From Pseudomonas antarctica (lineage in GTDB: Bacteria > Pseudomonadota > Gammaproteobacteria > Pseudomonadales > Pseudomonadaceae): 64,000 nucleotides of DNA. The notes below the pieces were generated by a model. It was not told the origin of the DNA. It saw only the letters and a program-made list of their open reading frames with translations, and made no database searches. Each line of letters starts with the position of its first letter. The stretch's first letter is position 1. Shown in pieces: positions 9,423 to 21,770 of the stretch. The position numbers were made by a program, and so were the translations under genes. Location: positions 1,736,001-1,800,000 of the forward strand of contig NZ_CP015600.1 of the NCBI RefSeq assembly GCF_001647715.1, in the 5' to 3' direction.

Positions 9423-10301
9423 ATGATTGCGGGCAGTATGGTGGCACTGGTCACACCCATGGATGCACAAGGTCATCTCGACTGGGATAGCCTGGGCAAA
9501 CTGGTGGACTTCCACCTGCAAGAGGGCACCAACGCCATTGTGGCGGTCGGCACCACAGGTGAATCGGCCACCCTTGATGTGGAAGAACACATTCAGGTGA
9601 TCGAATTCGTGGTCAAGCGCGTCGCGGGTCGTATCGCCGTGATCGCCGGTACGGGCGCCAACTCGACGCGTGAAGCGATCGAGCTGACCAAAAACGCCAA
9701 GAAAGCCGGCGCCGATGCTTGCCTGCTGGTGACCCCGTACTACAACAAGCCGACCCAGGAAGGCCTGTACCAGCACTTCCGCACCATTGCCGAAGCCGTT
9801 GATATCCCGCAGATCCTTTACAACGTGCCCGGCCGCACTGCCTGCGACATGAAGGCCGAGACCGTGATTCGCCTGTCCACCGTACCGAACATCATCGGTA
9901 TCAAGGAAGCCACCGGCGACCTGCAACGCGCCAAGGACATCCTGGCCGGCGTGAGCAGCGACTTCCTGGTGTATTCCGGTGACGACGCCACGGCGGTCGA
10001 ACTGATCTTGCTGGGTGGCAAAGGCAACATCTCGGTGACCGCCAACGTTGCCCCGCGTGCCATGAGCGACATGTGCGCCGCTGCCATCGCCGGTGACGCC
10101 GTGAAAGCGCGTGCGATCCACGAGCAACTGATGCCGCTCAACAAGACACTCTTTATCGAATCCAACCCTATTCCCGTGAAATGGGCGCTGTTTGAGATGG
10201 GCTTGATGCCGGACGGTATCCGTCTGCCGCTCACCCGGCTCAGCGAAGCCTGTCACGAACCGCTGCGACAGGCCCTGCGCCAGTCCGGCGTCCTGGTTTA
10301 A
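9423..10301 (+). CDS. dapA: 4-hydroxy-tetrahydrodipicolinate synthase DapA
   Basis: First committed enzyme of the lysine/diaminopimelate branch: condenses pyruvate with aspartate semialdehyde. The 292-residue TIM-barrel protein carries the Schiff-base lysine at residue 161 (IIGIKEATGD), the proton-relay tyrosine at 133 (LYNVPGRTACD) and the GTTGES pyruvate loop at 43-48. The ATG at 9423 is preceded by AGGAG at 9411-9415 and gives the canonical length. bamC follows after 17 bases, the conserved dapA-bamC pair of gammaproteobacteria. Confidence 0.98.
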   Translation: MIAGSMVALVTPMDAQGHLDWDSLGKLVDFHLQEGTNAIVAVGTTGESATLDVEEHIQVIEFVVKRVAGRIAVIAGTGANSTREAIELTKNAKKAGADACLLVTPYYNKPTQEGLYQHFRTIAEAVDIPQILYNVPGRTACDMKAETVIRLSTVPNIIGIKEATGDLQRAKDILAGVSSDFLVYSGDDATAVELILLGGKGNISVTANVAPRAMSDMCAAAIAGDAVKARAIHEQLMPLNKTLFIESNPIPVKWALFEMGLMPDGIRLPLTRLSEACHEPLRQALRQSGVLV

Positions 10302-10318
10302 TTGAGGAAGCACTACGC

Positions 10319-11434
10319 ATGAAGCGATTGGCCGGACTTTCCGCACTTGCCTTGATTATCTCCAGCACCAGCGGCTGCGGTTGGATTTGGGGCCCGGATG
10401 GTTACTTCCGTGACCGCGGTAGCGATTACCTGGAAGCACAAGCAACCAAACCGATGCAACTGCCGCCCGACGTCAATGTCGCCAAGCGCCTTGACCCGTT
10501 GCTGCCGATCCCGCGCAACGTCGCCGACGACACCACCAAGGGTGAGTACGTGGTGCCGCGTCCACAGCCGATCTCGGCCGTGGCTGACGCCAGTGACTAC
10601 AGCCTGCAGAAGAGCGGCGACAACCGCTGGATCATCGCTCAGCGCCCACCTGCCGAAGTCTGGCCGGTGGCGGTGCAGTTTTTCCAGGACAACGGTTTCC
10701 GCATTGATCAGCAGCGTCCGCAGACCGGTGAGTTCACCACGGCGTGGCAGCACGGCAGCGAACTGTCCGCCAACATGGCCAAGCGCCTGCAGGCCGGTGG
10801 TGTAGCCGCCGACAGCGAAGCCCGTGTGCGTGTGCGTATCGAGCCAGGCGTGCAACGCAATACCAGTGAAGTCTACGTGGTCAGCGCCGAGCGTCCTGCC
10901 GGCAGCACTGCCAACGTCGATTTCACCCCGCGTTCGGTCAACATGGGCGTTGACGCCGCGCTGGTCGACGAGATGCTGGCCAGCATGAGCCGTATCTCCG
11001 AGAAGGGTGGTTCAGTCTCCCTGCTCGCCGCCGGTAACTTCGACACGCCTAACCGCGTCAGCCTCACCGAAGACGGCAGCGGCAACGTGGTGCTGACCCT
11101 GGGTGAAGACCTCGACCGCGCCTGGGCCAGTGTTGGCCGTGCGTTGGAGCAAGGTCCTTGGCGCGTTGAAGACATCAACCGCAGCCTGGGCCTGTACTAC
11201 ATCAACGTGGCTGAAAAGGCCGAGAAGAAAGACGACGAGCCAGGCTTCTTCGGCAAGTTGTTCGGCAGCAAGCCGACCAAGGAAGAGATCGAAACCCGCG
11301 CCGAGCGTTACCAGGTTCGTCTGAGCAAGGTTGGCGAGAGCGTGCAAGTCACTGTCGAGAAGAACATCAACACCGTTGCGCCTGCTGAAACAGCACGCAA
11401 AGTGTTGGGCGTGATTCAGGACAACCTGGGCTGA
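10319..11434 (+). CDS. bamC: Outer membrane assembly lipoprotein BamC (NlpB)
   Basis: Lipoprotein subunit of the beta-barrel assembly machine in the outer membrane. The 371-residue protein has a lipoprotein signal with the acylated cysteine at residue 20 (SSTSGC). An unstructured N-terminal stretch of about 21-95, rich in Pro, by family knowledge binds BamD. Two helix-grip domains follow, about 95-215 and 240-370. GAGGAAG lies 8 bases before the ATG. The next gene begins 4 bases after its stop, so translation is probably coupled. Confidence 0.95.
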   Translation: MKRLAGLSALALIISSTSGCGWIWGPDGYFRDRGSDYLEAQATKPMQLPPDVNVAKRLDPLLPIPRNVADDTTKGEYVVPRPQPISAVADASDYSLQKSGDNRWIIAQRPPAEVWPVAVQFFQDNGFRIDQQRPQTGEFTTAWQHGSELSANMAKRLQAGGVAADSEARVRVRIEPGVQRNTSEVYVVSAERPAGSTANVDFTPRSVNMGVDAALVDEMLASMSRISEKGGSVSLLAAGNFDTPNRVSLTEDGSGNVVLTLGEDLDRAWASVGRALEQGPWRVEDINRSLGLYYINVAEKAEKKDDEPGFFGKLFGSKPTKEEIETRAERYQVRLSKVGESVQVTVEKNINTVAPAETARKVLGVIQDNLG

Positions 11435-13021: not shown

Positions 13022-13111
13022 GGAGAGATGCCAGAGTGGCCGAATGGGACGGATTCGAAATCCGTTGTACCTTCACCGGTACCTAGGGTTCGAATCCCTA
13101 TCTCTCCGCCA
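13022..13111 (+). tRNA. tRNA-Ser (anticodon CGA)
   Basis: 90-nt class II tRNA. The acceptor stem GGAGAGA pairs with TCTCTCC, followed by discriminator G and encoded CCA. The anticodon loop TTCGAAA inside GGATTCGAAATCC gives anticodon CGA. A long variable arm, about GTACCTTCACCGGTAC, and the T arm GGGTTCGAATCCC confirm serine identity. Its 3' end is partly duplicated 5.6 kb downstream, which suggests use as an integration site. Confidence 0.97.
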
Positions 13112-13157
13112 TTACATAGAAAAAGCCCCGTCGCTGAATAAGCGACGGGGCTTTTTT
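13104..13157 (+). repeat. Left copy of tRNA-end direct repeat (att-like)
   Basis: Begins CTCCGCCATTAC in the tRNA 3' end and runs through the tRNA terminator. The right copy is at 18759-18812. It may mark the left boundary of an acquired block. Confidence 0.6.
13121..13157 (+). terminator. Intrinsic terminator of tRNA-Ser
   Basis: AAAA, stem GCCCCGTCGCT (13125-13135), loop GAATA, AGCGACGGGGC (13141-13151), then TTTTTT. Confidence 0.93.
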
Positions 13158-13308
13158 GTTTTCAGATGTTCGTACTTGTTTCTACCACTCCTGCCTCCCT
13201 GTTTTCTTGCGTAAGCCGCATTTCAGTCGTTCTCTGGGAGCGCAGCCCTGTTGGAGTGGGCCTGCAGAAGCGGCTGCTTAATCTGGTGTTTATGCCTGTC
13301 GGCAGCCT

Positions 13309-14997
13309 TCACCGCCTTTGACTGTCTCTTGTTAGCGGTATCGACATTTGGTGCCTGAAAAGGTTGTTAGGGTCTACCTGGTTTTTCAGGGAAATCAACT
13401 CATCTACCAATCCCGAGTCTCCATAGTAAAGTTCCAGCCAACTGTCATCAGGCCTGCCGTTTACCACTAGCATGTCGACATCCGGATAGTTGATGTAGCA
13501 GCCTTCATATCGCCCCTCGACGCCCGGTCGCTGATTGGGTTGACTGGCGTGGACGTCTTCGTAGATTTTATTGATCCATGCGAGTTGAATAGGGTCTTGA
13601 GCGGGGTCAGTCCAGTAGGTTTGATATTGAGACTTTAATATTGATTTGCGCTGTGGAACAGCCGTGTTTCCTTGGCCCAGGCTATTGATTCTCCCACCAT
13701 AAGAATCAATTTGGACAAGGGATTGGCTGAATGTCCCATGTTGCGAAGGGGTGCTCAGATTATTATAAAAAGCATCGCATTCTTCGTCGGTAAAGGTATC
13801 CACTTGGTAGGCAGACTTATATTTTCCTCTTTGATTATTTCCTGATCCATTAATCATCTGGGTGATATAGAACCAATCCATTAGCAGCCCAGGCGACGCT
13901 TGGCTGATAGCTCTGCCAGCCATGCTATGCGGTCTTGGCGCGATGTTGGGTAATACGAAACCGTCGTAGAACTTTCCGTGGCCCGGTGCGGCACTGTTTA
14001 TAGCCGAGAGAAAATCGTTAAAGGGAGCATCTCGCTCATGATCGCCCACCAGGCCATCGCATCCCGTGTATTGGATGGCAAGAATGATTTTGGGGTTGGC
14101 GTCGATGTGATTCAGTTTCAGCAGGCTGAATAGACCACCGTTGGCTTTTGATAAAATAGGCGAGGTTGCATCTGAATCGTTTTTGGCGAACCAGTCGTGA
14201 TAGCCACGCAAAAATGTTCTAAAACTAATGGTGTCAAAGTCAGACCAGTCCCAGGAGAGCGTTGTCCAATACGCTTTTTGTGGCGCCTCGGGCAGGTCGT
14301 TGAAGTAGTAACGAATAATGATGCCGAAATTTCCGCCACCGGCTCCGCAGCAAGCCTTGAAAAGTTCTCGATGCAGCTTGAGATTTGAATGGGGGGTGAC
14401 ATGGACGGGGACTAACGATCTGCTGCTATTGGCGGGGTCCGGAATCAGGATGTCCACGCCGGTTACCCAGTCGACCGTCAACCCCTGAAGGCGCGACAGT
14501 AAACCGTAGCCCCCGCCGCTGATGTGGCCTCCGAGCCCCACGGAGTAACACGAACCGCCAGGTATCGTCTTGCCGCTCTGTTTGTACATTGCCACATAAC
14601 CATCCCAGTTCTGGCTACCTGTGAAAGCAGCGTATTGGTAATGGGTGGGGGTATGACTGTCATGTTTATAGAGCGGTTGAATATTGCCATCCGTATCATG
14701 AGAAAAACCTTTAAGTTCGCCCACGTCAATAATGGCTAGATTTTCGTTGTTTAATTGGTTCGACACGAAGCCTTCATAGCAATGTGCTCCGCTCCTTACG
14801 GTGATCCGAAAGCCTTGTGAGAGGGCTTCATTCGCAGCGTCCAGTACTTCTTCTGGTGTTTTGCACACGTAGATTCGTTTCGCTCCCGTTCCGGCACTTG
14901 GCGGCCAACGGAGATTGAACCCTTTCTGTAAGGTTGAAAATGTCTTGTTGTCTTCCGTTATTGTAATAAAACTCGAGTTGCCTGTTGGGGTACTCAT
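13309..14997 (-). CDS. Bicovalent FAD oxidase, berberine-bridge (BBE) family
   Basis: Predicted oxygen-dependent flavoprotein oxidase of the VAO/BBE superfamily, 562 residues. The PCMH-type FAD domain has both residues expected for bicovalent flavinylation: His72 in RSGAHCYEG and Cys150 in GGSCYSVGLGGHISGGGYG. The C-terminus has the BBE signature: GCYINYPDVD, LYYGDS and DPNNLFRHQMSIP. No Sec or Tat signal is visible. The ATG at 14997 has AGGAGG upstream and is preferred over the longer open frame. Its codons are clearly AT-richer than those of neighbours. It is divergent from a ChiC-type chitinase. Known relatives oxidise sugars or oligosaccharides (hexose, gluco- and chito-oligosaccharide oxidases) or antibiotics; the substrate here is inferred, not shown. 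Confidence 0.85.
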   Translation of the reverse strand: MSTPTGNSSFITITEDNKTFSTLQKGFNLRWPPSAGTGAKRIYVCKTPEEVLDAANEALSQGFRITVRSGAHCYEGFVSNQLNNENLAIIDVGELKGFSHDTDGNIQPLYKHDSHTPTHYQYAAFTGSQNWDGYVAMYKQSGKTIPGGSCYSVGLGGHISGGGYGLLSRLQGLTVDWVTGVDILIPDPANSSRSLVPVHVTPHSNLKLHRELFKACCGAGGGNFGIIIRYYFNDLPEAPQKAYWTTLSWDWSDFDTISFRTFLRGYHDWFAKNDSDATSPILSKANGGLFSLLKLNHIDANPKIILAIQYTGCDGLVGDHERDAPFNDFLSAINSAAPGHGKFYDGFVLPNIAPRPHSMAGRAISQASPGLLMDWFYITQMINGSGNNQRGKYKSAYQVDTFTDEECDAFYNNLSTPSQHGTFSQSLVQIDSYGGRINSLGQGNTAVPQRKSILKSQYQTYWTDPAQDPIQLAWINKIYEDVHASQPNQRPGVEGRYEGCYINYPDVDMLVVNGRPDDSWLELYYGDSGLVDELISLKNQVDPNNLFRHQMSIPLTRDSQRR

Positions 14998-15443
14998 ATT
15001 TGTGCGCCTCCTTGCAAAAAATATGTGCCCTGCGCTGCGCAAGTGTCCTGACTGTTAGTGCTCAATCAGAATGTAAGTGCGTGTTTCACTAGGCGTATCT
15101 CACCTTAGTCTATATTTTCACGCTGTCCATGCTTCTTGCTAAAGCGCTTAGCCTGATATTTTTAGGTGGGTATCCGAAAGGTTATCGGTTGCTAATCGTC
15201 ATACACGACTGTTTCGCCCGTGTGCTTGGCGGTAGAGAAGGGTGAGGTGTGTGTCGGTCGGCGTTCGCCGCCTTGTGTTTTCTTCTTTTGTCGTCGAATT
15301 TATTTTTTATGATGGGCAATCTAAAAGCTTGCGCTAGCCTTAGGGGCTCACTCTAGCGTGAGGCGCCAATTCATCAAAGAGATGAGGTGTCAATAATCTC
15401 GGGCCATGTACGGCTCCTAGTATCGTTCTGAAGGAATAGAACA
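14998..15443. promoter_or_regulatory. Oxidase-chitinase divergent intergenic region
   Basis: A 446-base AT-rich gap with no supported gene. It should hold both divergent promoters. It contains an inverted repeat CTCAC-N6-GTGAG at 15347-15362, about 80 bases before the chitinase start. AAGGA at 15431-15435 is the chitinase ribosome site and also matches the ANGGA core bound by RsmA-type regulators. Confidence 0.5.
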
Positions 15444-16910
15444 ATGTCTAAGATTGATTTTTCATTACTGAAGTCAACCATAAATGATTCAGCTTCTTTG
15501 ATGCCTGACATCGCCAATAAAAAAATCCTGATGGGCTTTTGGCATAACTGGCCAGCGGGCCACAGTGACGGTTATCAAGGTGGGCATTTCGCTAATCTAG
15601 AACTGGTGGATATACCCAAGGACTACAACGTTGTTGCCGTGGCTTTTATGAAAGGCCAGGGCATTCCTACGTTCAAACCCTATAACCTCTCCGACGACGA
15701 GTTTCGCCGCCAGGTGGGCGTGCTGAACAGTCAGGGCAGGGCTGTCTTGATCTCGTTGGGCGGTGCCGATGCTCATATCGAGTTGCACAAAGGGGATGAA
15801 CAGCCTCTGGCCAATGAGATCATCCGCTTGGTTGAAACATACGGCTTCGATGGGTTGGATATCGACCTTGAGCAAAGTGCCATTGATTTCGCTGACAACA
15901 AGACGGTGCTGCCGACAGCCTTGAAACTGGTCAAGGATCACTACAAGGGTGAGGGCAAGCATTTTATTATCAGTATGGCGCCTGAGTTTCCCTATCTCCG
16001 GGCGGGCGGCAAGTACGTTGATTACATTCAGGCGCTCGAGGGCTACTACGATTTCATTGCGCCTCAATACTACAACCAAGGTGGCGATGGGATCTGGGTT
16101 CAAGAATTCAATAACGGTCAGGGGGTCTGGATTGCGCAGAACAATGATGCGATGAAGGAGGACTTTCTTTACTACCTGACCGAGAGCCTGGTCACCGGCA
16201 CTCGGGACTACATCGCCATCCCCGTGGACAAGTTCGTCATTGGCTTACCGACCAACATTGACGCTGCGGCGACAGGCTATGTCATTGAGCCTGCTGCGGT
16301 GGTTAATGCGTTTAAACGTCTCGATGCTGCGGGCCATTCCATCAAAGGACTGATGACCTGGTCGATCAACTGGGACAATGGCGTCAGCAGGGACAATGTT
16401 CCCTACGATTGGGAGTTCTACAATCGCTATGCCCCGTTGATTCACGGTGATACAGGTATCGGCGACCGGCCAACGGCTCCCGCCAATTTGTCCTATAAGG
16501 ACGTGACTGAAACCCGCGTGACCTTGAGTTGGGGGGCCGCAGCGGGCCCTCGTCCAATTCAAACATACACGCTGTACCGCAACGTGACCCCCATAGGTCA
16601 GACGGCGAACTTGACGCGGGAAGACTCGGGTCTAACCCCGAACACGCAGTACAGTTACTTTGTTACGGCAACCGACTCTTTGGGAAAAGAGTCGCTTCCC
16701 AGCATGAGCCTGAGCGTTAGAACCGCCGGAGACGTAACCGACCCCGAGTATCCCGAATGGCAATTGGACCATCGGTATCGCAAGGGGGATGGCGTGACTT
16801 ACGAGGGCAACAGGTACTTGTGCCTGCAAGAGCACGCATCAAACTCAGGCTGGACACCACCCGTCGCCTTTACCCTGTGGTCGAAGGTCGCAATCAAACG
16901 GCGAGCTTAG
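15444..16910 (+). CDS. chiC: GH18 chitinase, ChiC-like, without signal peptide
   Basis: Endochitinase predicted to hydrolyse beta-1,4 N-acetylglucosamine chains. The 488-residue protein has a GH18 barrel (about 25-335) with the catalytic signature FDGLDIDLE, general acid near residue 143. A fibronectin type III domain follows (about 340-428), then a C-terminal CBM5/12 chitin-binding module (about 434-482, with aromatic residues in YPEWQ, YRKGDGV and GWTPP). The N-terminus MSKIDFSLLKSTINDSASLM lacks a signal peptide, like P. aeruginosa ChiC, a leaderless chitinase that appears gradually outside the cell. AAGGA precedes the ATG. It is divergent from a flavin oxidase and is AT-richer than surrounding genes. 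Confidence 0.92.
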   Translation: MSKIDFSLLKSTINDSASLMPDIANKKILMGFWHNWPAGHSDGYQGGHFANLELVDIPKDYNVVAVAFMKGQGIPTFKPYNLSDDEFRRQVGVLNSQGRAVLISLGGADAHIELHKGDEQPLANEIIRLVETYGFDGLDIDLEQSAIDFADNKTVLPTALKLVKDHYKGEGKHFIISMAPEFPYLRAGGKYVDYIQALEGYYDFIAPQYYNQGGDGIWVQEFNNGQGVWIAQNNDAMKEDFLYYLTESLVTGTRDYIAIPVDKFVIGLPTNIDAAATGYVIEPAAVVNAFKRLDAAGHSIKGLMTWSINWDNGVSRDNVPYDWEFYNRYAPLIHGDTGIGDRPTAPANLSYKDVTETRVTLSWGAAAGPRPIQTYTLYRNVTPIGQTANLTREDSGLTPNTQYSYFVTATDSLGKESLPSMSLSVRTAGDVTDPEYPEWQLDHRYRKGDGVTYEGNRYLCLQEHASNSGWTPPVAFTLWSKVAIKRRA

Positions 16911-16920
16911 AGCGGTAGGA

Positions 16921-16948
16921 AAAGCCCGGCAGAAGTGCCGGGCTTTTC
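16921..16948. terminator. Terminator after chitinase
   Basis: AAA, stem GCCCGGC (16924-16930), loop AGAAGT, GCCGGGC (16937-16943), then TTTTCTT. It lies between convergent chiC and the MFS gene. Confidence 0.85.
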
Positions 16949-16987
16949 TTTGCCTTCGAGTAGGGCTTTTTCGTTTCTGTCGTCTGG

Positions 16988-18229
16988 TTAGCCAGGCTGG
17001 GCCACCAAGCTATTGCTCACATTACGCCCGAGCACCAGCACCGTTACAAAGCCACAGCCCACCAACGCTGTCGCCAGGCTCAACAACACCGCGCTACCCA
17101 TTTGATCGACAATTTGGCCGCCGAAGAACGACCCCAAAGCGATGATCACCTGGAACAAGGCAACGAACAGTGGCATGCCGCGTTCGACGTCCTTGGGGGC
17201 GACGACAAACATCCAAATACTGGCGCAAGCCGGGAAGGCGCCGAAGGCGAAGCCCCAGAGTGCGATCAGCATTGCGGCGCCGGTCATGCCGGTGGCGAAG
17301 TAGGGAAACAGGGCGGTGCTGGTGCCGATCATCAGTGCGACCAGCAGCAGGGTGTGACGCACGCTGCGGTTGGCGGCGAAACCGGCAAAGACATTGCCCA
17401 TCACCCCGGCCACGCCGTAGAGCAGTAGCAGTGAGCCAATTGTCGGGCCGTCGAAGCCGGAACTGTTTTTGAAGAAGGGCGCAACATAGGTATATGCAGC
17501 AAAGTGCGCCAGGCCGATCAGCAAGACAGCGATCAAGCCGACCCGTGCTTGCGGGTTGATAAACAAGGCTGGCAGATCACGGATCTGAATAGCCTTTTCC
17601 GGGGTGAGTCGCGGTAGCAGGAATACCTGCGCCAGCAGCACCGGTACGCCCACGATTGCGGTGACCAGAAAGGTCATGCGCCAGCCCATCAGGCCACTCA
17701 GCCACGTACCCACGGGCACGCCCAGTACCGTGGCCAGGGTCACCCCCATCATGATGATTGAGGTCGCCTTCGCTACGCCAACGCCCTTGGGGGCCAGGCG
17801 GCCGCTGAGGGCGATGGCCGTTGCCCAGAAACCACCGATGCTGATACCCAGCAGCACGCGGCCGAACAGCAGCAGGTTGAAGTCGCTGGCGTAGGCCACG
17901 ACCGTGTTGGCGATGATCATGATCAGTGTCAGGCCAATCAGCAGGTAACGCCGGTCCATGGCGCCAATGCTCACCGACAGCAAAGGCGCAGCGAGGGCGG
18001 CCATGATGCCGGGCAGGGTGACCATCAGGCCGGCATGACCGGCACTGATGCCGAGGTCGCTGGCGACGTCGTTGAGTACGCCCACGGGCAGAAACTCACT
18101 GGTCACCAGGGCGAAGGCACCCACGGCAACCGAGAGAATCGCCAGCCACTGCTGTTTGACACTCTGTTGATTATGTTCAGGGCGGCCGCTGGAGGCCTGG
18201 CTGACGCTTGGCATGGTGTTGGGTTCCAT
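16988..18229 (-). CDS. MFS transporter, DHA1/NepI-like exporter
   Basis: Inner-membrane major facilitator of 413 residues with about 12 hydrophobic segments. After a 28-residue polar N-terminus it begins LSVAVGAFALVTSEFLPVGV, the TSEFLPVGLL-type motif of the DHA1 drug/nucleoside exporter group (NepI, YdhP, SotB relatives). Motif A-like DRRYLL and the FGRVLLGISIGGFW helix follow. Likely an exporter of small molecules; substrate unknown. It is convergent with the chitinase and divergent from the small protein gene at 18496. Composition is ordinary for the chromosome, unlike the oxidase and chitinase. Confidence 0.85.
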   Translation of the reverse strand: MEPNTMPSVSQASSGRPEHNQQSVKQQWLAILSVAVGAFALVTSEFLPVGVLNDVASDLGISAGHAGLMVTLPGIMAALAAPLLSVSIGAMDRRYLLIGLTLIMIIANTVVAYASDFNLLLFGRVLLGISIGGFWATAIALSGRLAPKGVGVAKATSIIMMGVTLATVLGVPVGTWLSGLMGWRMTFLVTAIVGVPVLLAQVFLLPRLTPEKAIQIRDLPALFINPQARVGLIAVLLIGLAHFAAYTYVAPFFKNSSGFDGPTIGSLLLLYGVAGVMGNVFAGFAANRSVRHTLLLVALMIGTSTALFPYFATGMTGAAMLIALWGFAFGAFPACASIWMFVVAPKDVERGMPLFVALFQVIIALGSFFGGQIVDQMGSAVLLSLATALVGCGFVTVLVLGRNVSNSLVAQPG

Positions 18230-20811: not shown

Positions 20812-21150
20812 TCACGCGTCTGCCGAGGGGGCGTGTGCGCCGTGACTCTGGAACCGCGCGGCATAATCCTGTCCACCGTAAAACACTCCCAGGATCGACA
20901 CCGCATGAGTATCGGCGGCGACCCTGAATGCGATGGCGGTGGTATGCCGGTAATGGGTGATGCGCAACGTGGGTAGCAGGTCGTCACGGCGAGTGCCGCG
21001 CAAGGGCAACACGCAAAGGCTTTCGCAGTAGCTGATGAGGTTGTCAACAAAGCGTGCCGCTACCACTGGGGATTCGGTATCGCTGATGTAGTCTTCGAGG
21101 GCGTCAAGCTGGGCTAACGCCTCAGGCGCAAAGGCTACCGAATGACTCAC
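20812..21150 (-). CDS. ParE/RelE-family toxin
   Basis: A 112-residue protein of the ParE/RelE superfamily: FAPEALAQLDALEDYISDT, AARFVDNLISYCESL, a central LPLRGTRRDDLLPTLRITHYRHTTAIAFRV and the C-terminal strand VSILGVFYGGQDY. ParE members inhibit DNA gyrase; RelE members cleave mRNA; the sequence favours ParE. The start is GTG, overlapping the antitoxin stop by 4 bases (GTGA), the translational coupling typical of type II modules. A polar tail of about 15 residues after the fold is unusual. Confidence 0.88.
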   Translation of the reverse strand: MSHSVAFAPEALAQLDALEDYISDTESPVVAARFVDNLISYCESLCVLPLRGTRRDDLLPTLRITHYRHTTAIAFRVAADTHAVSILGVFYGGQDYAARFQSHGAHAPSADA

Positions 21151-21428
21151 GGTTTTTCGGTACTCTTTCGCTGACGTTTTGTCGTCATGTGTTCGCGAAC
21201 CTGCTCGGCGGACAGTGCCCGGCCAGGGTCGGCCGTGAGAGCGGCAGCCGCAGGGATCACCTGGTCGCGCAACCAGTCCTCCATCGCGCGGTCACGCGCC
21301 AGCAGCACCCTCAGGCCGTCGCGTATGACTTCACTCTCGGACGCGTATTCACCGGCAGCGACCTTGGCTTTGACCAGGGCGGCCATCTCGAGTGGCAGGG
21401 TGATGCTCATTTGCTGGGTTGAGCGCAT
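21147..21428 (-). CDS. ParD-type antitoxin
   Basis: Ribbon-helix-helix antitoxin of about 93 residues. MSITLPLEMAALVKAKVAAG is the DNA-binding strand and first helix; YASESEVIRDGLRVLLARD is the second helix. A longer C-terminal tail (about 55-93) would wrap the toxin. The start is uncertain: the ATG at 21428 and the one at 21410 are both possible, and neither has a strong ribosome site. The long open frame further upstream is not needed for the family length. A perfect palindrome just upstream is the probable operator of self-repression. Confidence 0.85.
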   Translation of the reverse strand: MRSTQQMSITLPLEMAALVKAKVAAGEYASESEVIRDGLRVLLARDRAMEDWLRDQVIPAAAALTADPGRALSAEQVREHMTTKRQRKSTEKP

Positions 21429-21448
21429 GTCGAAGTCCGCAGGTGTCG

Positions 21449-21467
21449 AGTAGGATTCAATCCTACT
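21449..21467. promoter_or_regulatory. Palindromic operator upstream of parDE-type genes
   Basis: AGTAGGATT-C-AATCCTACT: 9-bp perfect arms around one base, 21 bases upstream of the antitoxin start. It has the size and place expected for binding by the RHH antitoxin. Confidence 0.65.
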
Positions 21468-21770
21468 GGACCATTGGCGTGTTGCAAGAAGCAACTGACC
21501 GATACCGCTCGATGGCGTCTCGTCGTCGTTCCAAAAAGGATGGGGGTTCTGGCAGGTTTCCATGAGCGTCTTTCTCTCCCGTTGAGTAGGTCAGGTCGAA
21601 AGTATTGACGCTTTTTTCCGACTGTGTGGCGCCAGCGGGCGAATAACCCACTGATATGTATGACTTCATATTTGTAGCAGGGTTATTAAGACAAACCGGC
21701 CCCGTCACGCATGGCGCCCCATCCCCGCCCATACGATAATGCCCCTCAAATCGACCACACTGGCCTTCCC

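Follow-up and report, generated by a model that had tools for sequence, protein, structure and literature searches.

The DNA stretch analysed here, referred to as the window, comprises 64,000 nucleotides of the 6.6-Mb genome of Pseudomonas antarctica (contig NZ_CP015600.1; G000:C1:1736001-1800000), and the subject is a pair of divergent genes within it, one for a flavin-dependent oxidase and one for a ChiC-type chitinase. The oxidase gene lies on the minus strand at 13309..14997 and encodes 562 amino acids (aa), predicted to form an N-acetyl-D-hexosamine oxidase of the NagOx type; the chitinase gene lies on the plus strand at 15444..16910 and encodes 488 aa. The divergent intergenic region between them (14998..15443) was aligned with four relatives. 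Read together with related loci, the window would hold a transferable chitin cassette in which the oxidase supplies hydrogen peroxide (H2O2) and oxidised sugar, a reading to which we give a probability of about 0.6.

Both genes are richer in AT than their surroundings, as an initial annotation of this stretch had noted: the guanine-plus-cytosine content is 49.4% in the oxidase gene and 53.1% in chiC, compared with 60.7% in the window outside 13112-16985. Mechanical calling of open reading frames (ORFs) places the oxidase start at a TTG at 15042, giving a 577-aa frame. We take the ATG at 14997 as the probable start instead, because a putative Shine-Dalgarno sequence (AAGGAGG, 15007..15013 on the minus strand, read from the sequence as CCTCCTT on the plus strand) precedes it and the relatives P0002 and P0005 share the 562-aa length.

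The chitinase carries the Pfam domains GH18, fn3 and CBM_5_12, and it matches the solved Chitinase C1 (4axn, 5.6e-167). The catalytic motif DxxDxDxE reads DGLDIDLE at residues 136-143. ChiC of P. aeruginosa has the same GH18-FnIII-CBM5/12 architecture, the same motif with Glu143 at the same number and likewise no evident signal peptide; removal of its first 11 residues is reported, with chitobiose as its main product (PMC11218509). The window gene differs in having an oxidase gene as its neighbour, joined in relatives by a gene for a lytic polysaccharide monooxygenase (LPMO). The genome also contains a second, short ChiC with an adjoining leaderless LPMO gene of family AA10 (L127:4585-6325, corresponding to G000:C1:4481584-4483324).

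Family and active site of the oxidase

The oxidase contains the Pfam domains FAD_binding_4 (PF01565) and BBE (PF08031); no NCBIfam model scored above its cut-off for either the oxidase or the chitinase. Its best solved relative is NagOx of Ralstonia solanacearum (EC 1.1.3.29, 7zzk), which matches residues 28-568 of the 577-aa frame at 8e-117, a near full-length homology with 230 of 495 aligned residues identical (46%). By alignment, the residues linking the flavin adenine dinucleotide (FAD) in NagOx, His64 (histidyl link) and Cys123 (cysteinyl link), correspond to His72 (14782..14784, minus strand) and Cys150 (14548..14550, minus strand). The initial annotation had described an oxidase with the residues expected for doubly attached FAD and a BBE terminus, divergent from a GH18-FnIII-CBM5/12 chitinase, and the aligned residues, domain matches and gene positions agree with it on each point.

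The rest of the active site is nearly unchanged. Tyr66, Ser122, Tyr137, Leu139, Leu251, Tyr345, Gln381, Asp383, Gln410, Gln412, Tyr414, Tyr459 and Tyr462 of NagOx are all conserved in the alignment, and the sole change among the listed residues is a conservative one, Val334 to Ile382. The cysteines of the NagOx lid-loop disulfide are not conserved, Cys291 aligning with Ala336 and Cys316 with a gap; this disulfide has been seen in NagOx and is not known as a defining feature.

NagOx oxidises sugars at C1 (PMC9299179), with a kcat of 120-140 s-1 and a kcat/KM of 64x10^4 M-1 s-1 for N-acetylglucosamine (GlcNAc) versus 4x10^3 M-1 s-1 for diacetylchitobiose (PMC9850908). Because of the NagOx match, C1 oxidation of GlcNAc-type sugars by the window oxidase is strongly supported as a prediction, and the protein is very probably an N-acetyl-D-hexosamine oxidase of this type, expected to convert GlcNAc, and less efficiently chitobiose, to the lactone and H2O2. 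To this extent the chito-oligosaccharide oxidation first proposed for the locus stands; its focus on oligomers probably does not, since NagOx prefers the monomer.

Fungal ChitO (6y0r), originally chosen as the model, shares with the window oxidase the vanillyl alcohol oxidase fold, bicovalent FAD and the use of N-acetylated sugars. NagOx replaces it in that role: ChitO shows only weak local similarity (3.1e-15 over a best stretch of 117 residues) and prefers oligomers. Its specificity residue Gln268 corresponds to Leu292 of the window oxidase (14122..14124, minus strand), the same Leu as NagOx Leu251 in the N-acetyl pocket (position equivalence from PMC9850908), and residue identity led to rejection of a ChitO-like pocket. 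NagOx Tyr345, Tyr414 and Gln412 differ in ChitO as well. An oligosaccharide oxidase of the ChitO kind, specialised for ChiC products, would agree with the shared block with chiC, with chitobiose being a NagOx substrate (PMC9850908) and with the missing lid-loop cysteines, through which the entrance may differ; set against the residues just listed, we regard it as quite improbable.

An N-acetylhexosamine (HexNAc) oxidase had earlier been purified from a Pseudomonas-like bacterium, without a sequence (Horiuchi 1989 as cited in PMC9299179). The likeness to the window protein lies in the predicted activity and, loosely, in the kind of bacterium. No sequence is linked to the 1989 protein in the accessible text, and the present proteins offer a candidate sequence family for that activity.

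The pocket also appears to divide the family. A scan of named genomes returned 401 oxidase relatives, and the best 80 of these 401 loci were analysed. Residue 292 is Leu in 54, Lys in 24 and Gly in 1 of the 79 scorable sequences (out of 81), and every Lys is paired with Gln431. All 24 Lys292/Gln431 loci (all Pseudomonas; L064, L066-L110) have dgoK-, dgoA-, dgoD- and major facilitator superfamily (MFS)-like genes within the fetched flanks, compared with 0, 1, 1 and 0 of the other 56 loci, respectively; the 24 form one lineage and count as about one event. The MFS and dgoD-like (MR_MLE) queries were checked by Pfam, while dgoK and dgoA were named by similarity to the DGOK and Aldolase proteins of Budvicia; the dgo-type genes are presumably to be labelled as D-galactonate genes. 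This sister group would probably oxidise a non-acetylated hexose. In NagOx itself, the L251R exchange moves the preference to non-acetylated sugars (PMC9850908). The gene contexts fit a family of aldonic-acid producers in which the pocket would determine the sugar used; Leu/Asp versus Lys/Gln at residues 292/431 varies with the genomic surroundings and could be a predictor of sugar specificity.

The oxidase-LPMO-chiC block and its genomic site

P. farris (L032), P. sp. TH31 (L033) and P. fluorescens FW300-N2E3 (L034) have in common with the window only the oxidase-(LPMO)-chiC block; no flank alignment was found beyond it among these four strains over the 13-22 kb compared per locus. The adjacency of oxidase and chiC is therefore not peculiar to one strain, and the link to chitin is also seen in CBM5/12 modules fused to the oxidase in 3 relatives among the 120 matches listed, 2 of them with FnIII too. 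In Yersinia similis (L039) and Y. pekkanenii (L040), the oxidase carries a fused FnIII-CBM portion with 39% identity to its ChiC counterpart.

The initial annotation missed the absence of an LPMO gene between the two. In P. farris (L112, from the same genome, G232, as L032) and in L034, a 211-aa AA10 frame stands between oxidase and chiC. Window positions 13316-15385 and 15392-16959 correspond in the alignment to L112 12626-10549 and 9913-8346; the sequence absent at 15385..15392 amounts to about 635 bp and coincides almost precisely with the L112 LPMO ORF (9909-10544). L032 and L034 have an uninterrupted frame, and frame changes break it in L033, a draft contig in which sequencing error could be responsible; in G007 most of the gene is gone through a different deletion. 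LPMO_10 matches occur in 13 of 13 genomes with the long ChiC, and by coordinates a copy adjoins the long chiC in ten of them (G232, G340, G350, G061, G360, G353, G376, G324, G271 and G292), the others being the window genome itself (G000), G007 and G158. Because the LPMO-chiC pair is present in these 10 of 13, we infer that the gene was lost in the window rather than gained elsewhere, and the window pair appears to be what is left of a three-gene block, oxidase-LPMO-chiC.

Two other AA10 genes are found in the window genome, at C1:4482701-4483291 (adjoining the short chiC) and at C1:2917372-2917959. In P. putida, a contig of 152,192 bases is given for both the oxidase P0005 and the LPMO P0140, perhaps a fifth case of the block. 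Short inverted repeats of differing sequence, seen by eye, precede the LPMO or chiC start in the window (15334-15388) and in relatives; the consensus fold of 11 leaders gave 0 pairs, and a conserved RNA hairpin is not claimed. Neither the three-gene block nor a leaderless AA10 group was described in the literature titles and abstract openings searched, a search with subscription journals mostly outside its scope; nor do the accessible parts of the NagOx reports describe a chiC or LPMO linkage for that enzyme.

A tRNA-Ser(CGA) gene (13022..13111, plus strand) forms the left edge of the site and an MFS transporter gene (16988..18229, minus strand) its right edge, both outside the cassette. The corresponding flanks in G017 and G031 (L140 and L141) align with the window up to 13114, just past the tRNA gene, and resume at 16986/16987; the intervening DNA, about 1 kb long, is different. 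Inspection by eye places a nucleotidyltransferase/HEPN-like pair in this variable site (13112-16987) in G017 and an acyltransferase-like gene in G031. Changing contents of this kind favour the view that oxidase and chiC are unrelated genes parked by chance at a tRNA hot spot. However, four strains carry these genes together in differing flanking contexts, and the long ChiC co-occurs with the oxidase even where the two are distant, so that chance cargo is the least credible of the explanations weighed here. Published work places the chiC of one Pseudomonas sub-clade in a compositionally unusual region and interprets this as a recent acquisition (PMC3390384). Plasmid carriage was rejected: matches were limited to 10 of 72,556 plasmid records, each with 60-80% identity and at most 9% query coverage, none reaching a coverage of 80%. 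Flanking direct repeats at the integration site were likewise rejected, with only short, chance-like pairs present.

Coupling to chitin breakdown and rival roles

Co-occurrence was assessed in 398 genomes of the genus, evenly drawn from a larger group, with an oxidase match threshold of 1e-40. Oxidase matches are present in 31 genomes: 7 at an identity of at least 60%, 21 at 43-46% and 3 split or weak, the last being excluded from the counts. All 7 genomes with the closer oxidase carry the long ChiC, compared with 13 of 398 overall (Fisher p 6e-12), or 15 of 398 when two weaker long-ChiC genomes (G181 and G116) are added (Fisher p 2e-11), both values ignoring genome kinship. Any ChiC occurs in 5 of the 21 genomes with 43-46% oxidases versus 88 of 398 (p=0.79), which is no excess.

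In the proposed mechanism, ChiC would cleave chitin, and the oxidase would take two electrons from C1 of GlcNAc, more slowly from chitobiose, and hand them to O2, giving an aldonolactone and H2O2. In the fuller cassette the oxidase would most likely feed H2O2 to the AA10 LPMO, turning chitin sugars into aldonic acids. AA10 LPMOs are an enzyme class able to use H2O2 as co-substrate; in the window strain the genome's two further AA10 genes could act in trans. Such a coupling of oxidase, LPMO and ChiC is proposed from gene linkage and known chemistry. To our knowledge, the natural H2O2 source of chitin-active LPMOs is an open question, and a block in which a GlcNAc oxidase predicted to generate peroxide accompanies an LPMO and a chitinase would make this source testable in soil Pseudomonas.

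The peroxide might also be an end in itself: sugars from fungal or arthropod chitin would be oxidised to yield H2O2 as a weapon against competitors or prey, leaving the aldonic acid as waste. The high turnover of NagOx given above would suit this purpose, as would the occurrence of oxidase relatives in Xenorhabdus, an insect-associated genus. Nothing in the block is specific to such use, and nothing separates a weapon from peroxide supply to an LPMO; we consider it improbable.

Several results weigh against the cassette reading, in addition to the genome kinship left aside by the Fisher values. The oxidase lies far from chiC in 5 of the 7 genomes, with no ChiC within the stretches around the oxidase, and among the best 80 loci ChiC-like DNA (the only kind of chitinase sought) is found near the oxidase only in L032, L033 and L034. 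The LPMO gene itself is missing from the block of the window strain, has a broken frame in L033 and has suffered a partial deletion in G007. GH20 was found in 0 of the 13 long-ChiC genomes; the oxidase would therefore be offered chitobiose, the main ChiC product, which NagOx uses less well. The low value of chitobiose to NagOx together with the lack of GH20 in 13 of 13 is the main result against efficient coupling. Two further points, the lack of an export signal in the oxidase and the gene contexts of some relatives, bear on where the enzyme acts.

Export was assessed by N-terminal hydropathy, the best 10-residue Kyte-Doolittle mean near the N-terminus, in place of a trained signal-peptide predictor. 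The oxidase scores 0.42 and the chitinase 0.97, compared with 2.46 for a lipoprotein-like protein also encoded in the window, in agreement with the initial view that both proteins lack an evident signal peptide. Of 120 oxidase-family proteins listed (P0001 being the window's own), 119 stay below a 10-residue mean of 2.0 throughout the region near the N-terminus; the exception, P0073, has a hydrophobic N-terminus with twin arginines that by eye resembles a twin-arginine translocation signal. Because 119 of 120 lack a hydrophobic N-terminus, the leaderless form is, on predicted hydropathy, a trait of the oxidase family, which argues against joint non-classical export. The suggestion that oxidase and chitinase are released by the same unusual route is accordingly not borne out. 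The fusion of chitin modules to leaderless oxidases suggests that some family members act outside the cell.

Relatives of the AA10 protein (L112:9909-10544) share a different N-terminal feature. Among the 108 found, 96 have the His motif by pattern, and in 87 of these 96 a Lys or Arg directly precedes the His, behind a non-hydrophobic leader of 6-20 residues (37 in one); many are close kin. The LPMO copper site requires a free N-terminal His, which here stands behind the short leader, suggesting a zymogen and, for this leaderless AA10 group, possible activation by a protease. Extending this to the whole three-gene cassette, as a self-fuelling kit of jointly released leaderless enzymes in which oxidase-derived H2O2 feeds a zymogen LPMO freed by protease after release, is a doubtful step.

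A catabolic role inside the cell would also fit the leaderless oxidases. Imported GlcNAc or N-acetylgalactosamine would be oxidised to N-acetylhexosaminic acid, then deacetylated and deaminated, and the nearness of chiC would reflect a shared chitin diet. The model is the Ong pathway of Pseudoalteromonas, whose enzymes are predicted to be cytoplasmic and which consumes GlcNAc1A, the expected acid product of the window oxidase; there GlcNAc1A comes from LPMO action (PMC9537276), and no such gene set lies beside the window block. Among the best 80 loci, 12 (1 Budvicia, 1 Lelliottia, 3 Dyella and 7 Variovorax), all belonging to the 56 outside the Lys/Gln group, have Budvicia-like genes for a deacylase-like (Amidohydro_3) and a deaminase-like (D-ser_dehydrat) protein, and some relatives also lie near RidA-like genes. 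We call these loci Ong-like from the published descriptions, not by comparison with the Pseudoalteromonas proteins (PMC9537276). They point to a catabolic, perhaps cytoplasmic, role in these oxidase relatives. In Budvicia (L052:2152-8605), D-ser_dehydrat, SSF, Ribonuc_L-PSP, Amidohydro_3, Aldolase and DGOK domains are encoded in the vicinity of the oxidase relative, which may make this a cluster for HexNAc oxidation and catabolism.

A gene related to that for the Budvicia deacylase (C1:5404326-5405762, 55% identical) also occurs in the window genome, which speaks for the same role. That gene is present in 12 of 13 genomes searched, however, including genomes without the oxidase. By eye the adjacent genes are regulator- and GntP-like, which does not point specifically to sugar acids, and neither a sugar kinase nor an aldolase was recognised among them. 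Chitin-binding fusions of oxidase relatives would make little sense inside the cell, and in the block the oxidase gene has those for an LPMO and a chitinase as its partners. Intracellular catabolism is possible though not likely, and the transferable chitin cassette is preferred.

Beyond the variable site, a ParE/ParD-type toxin-antitoxin pair lies at window positions 20812-21563.

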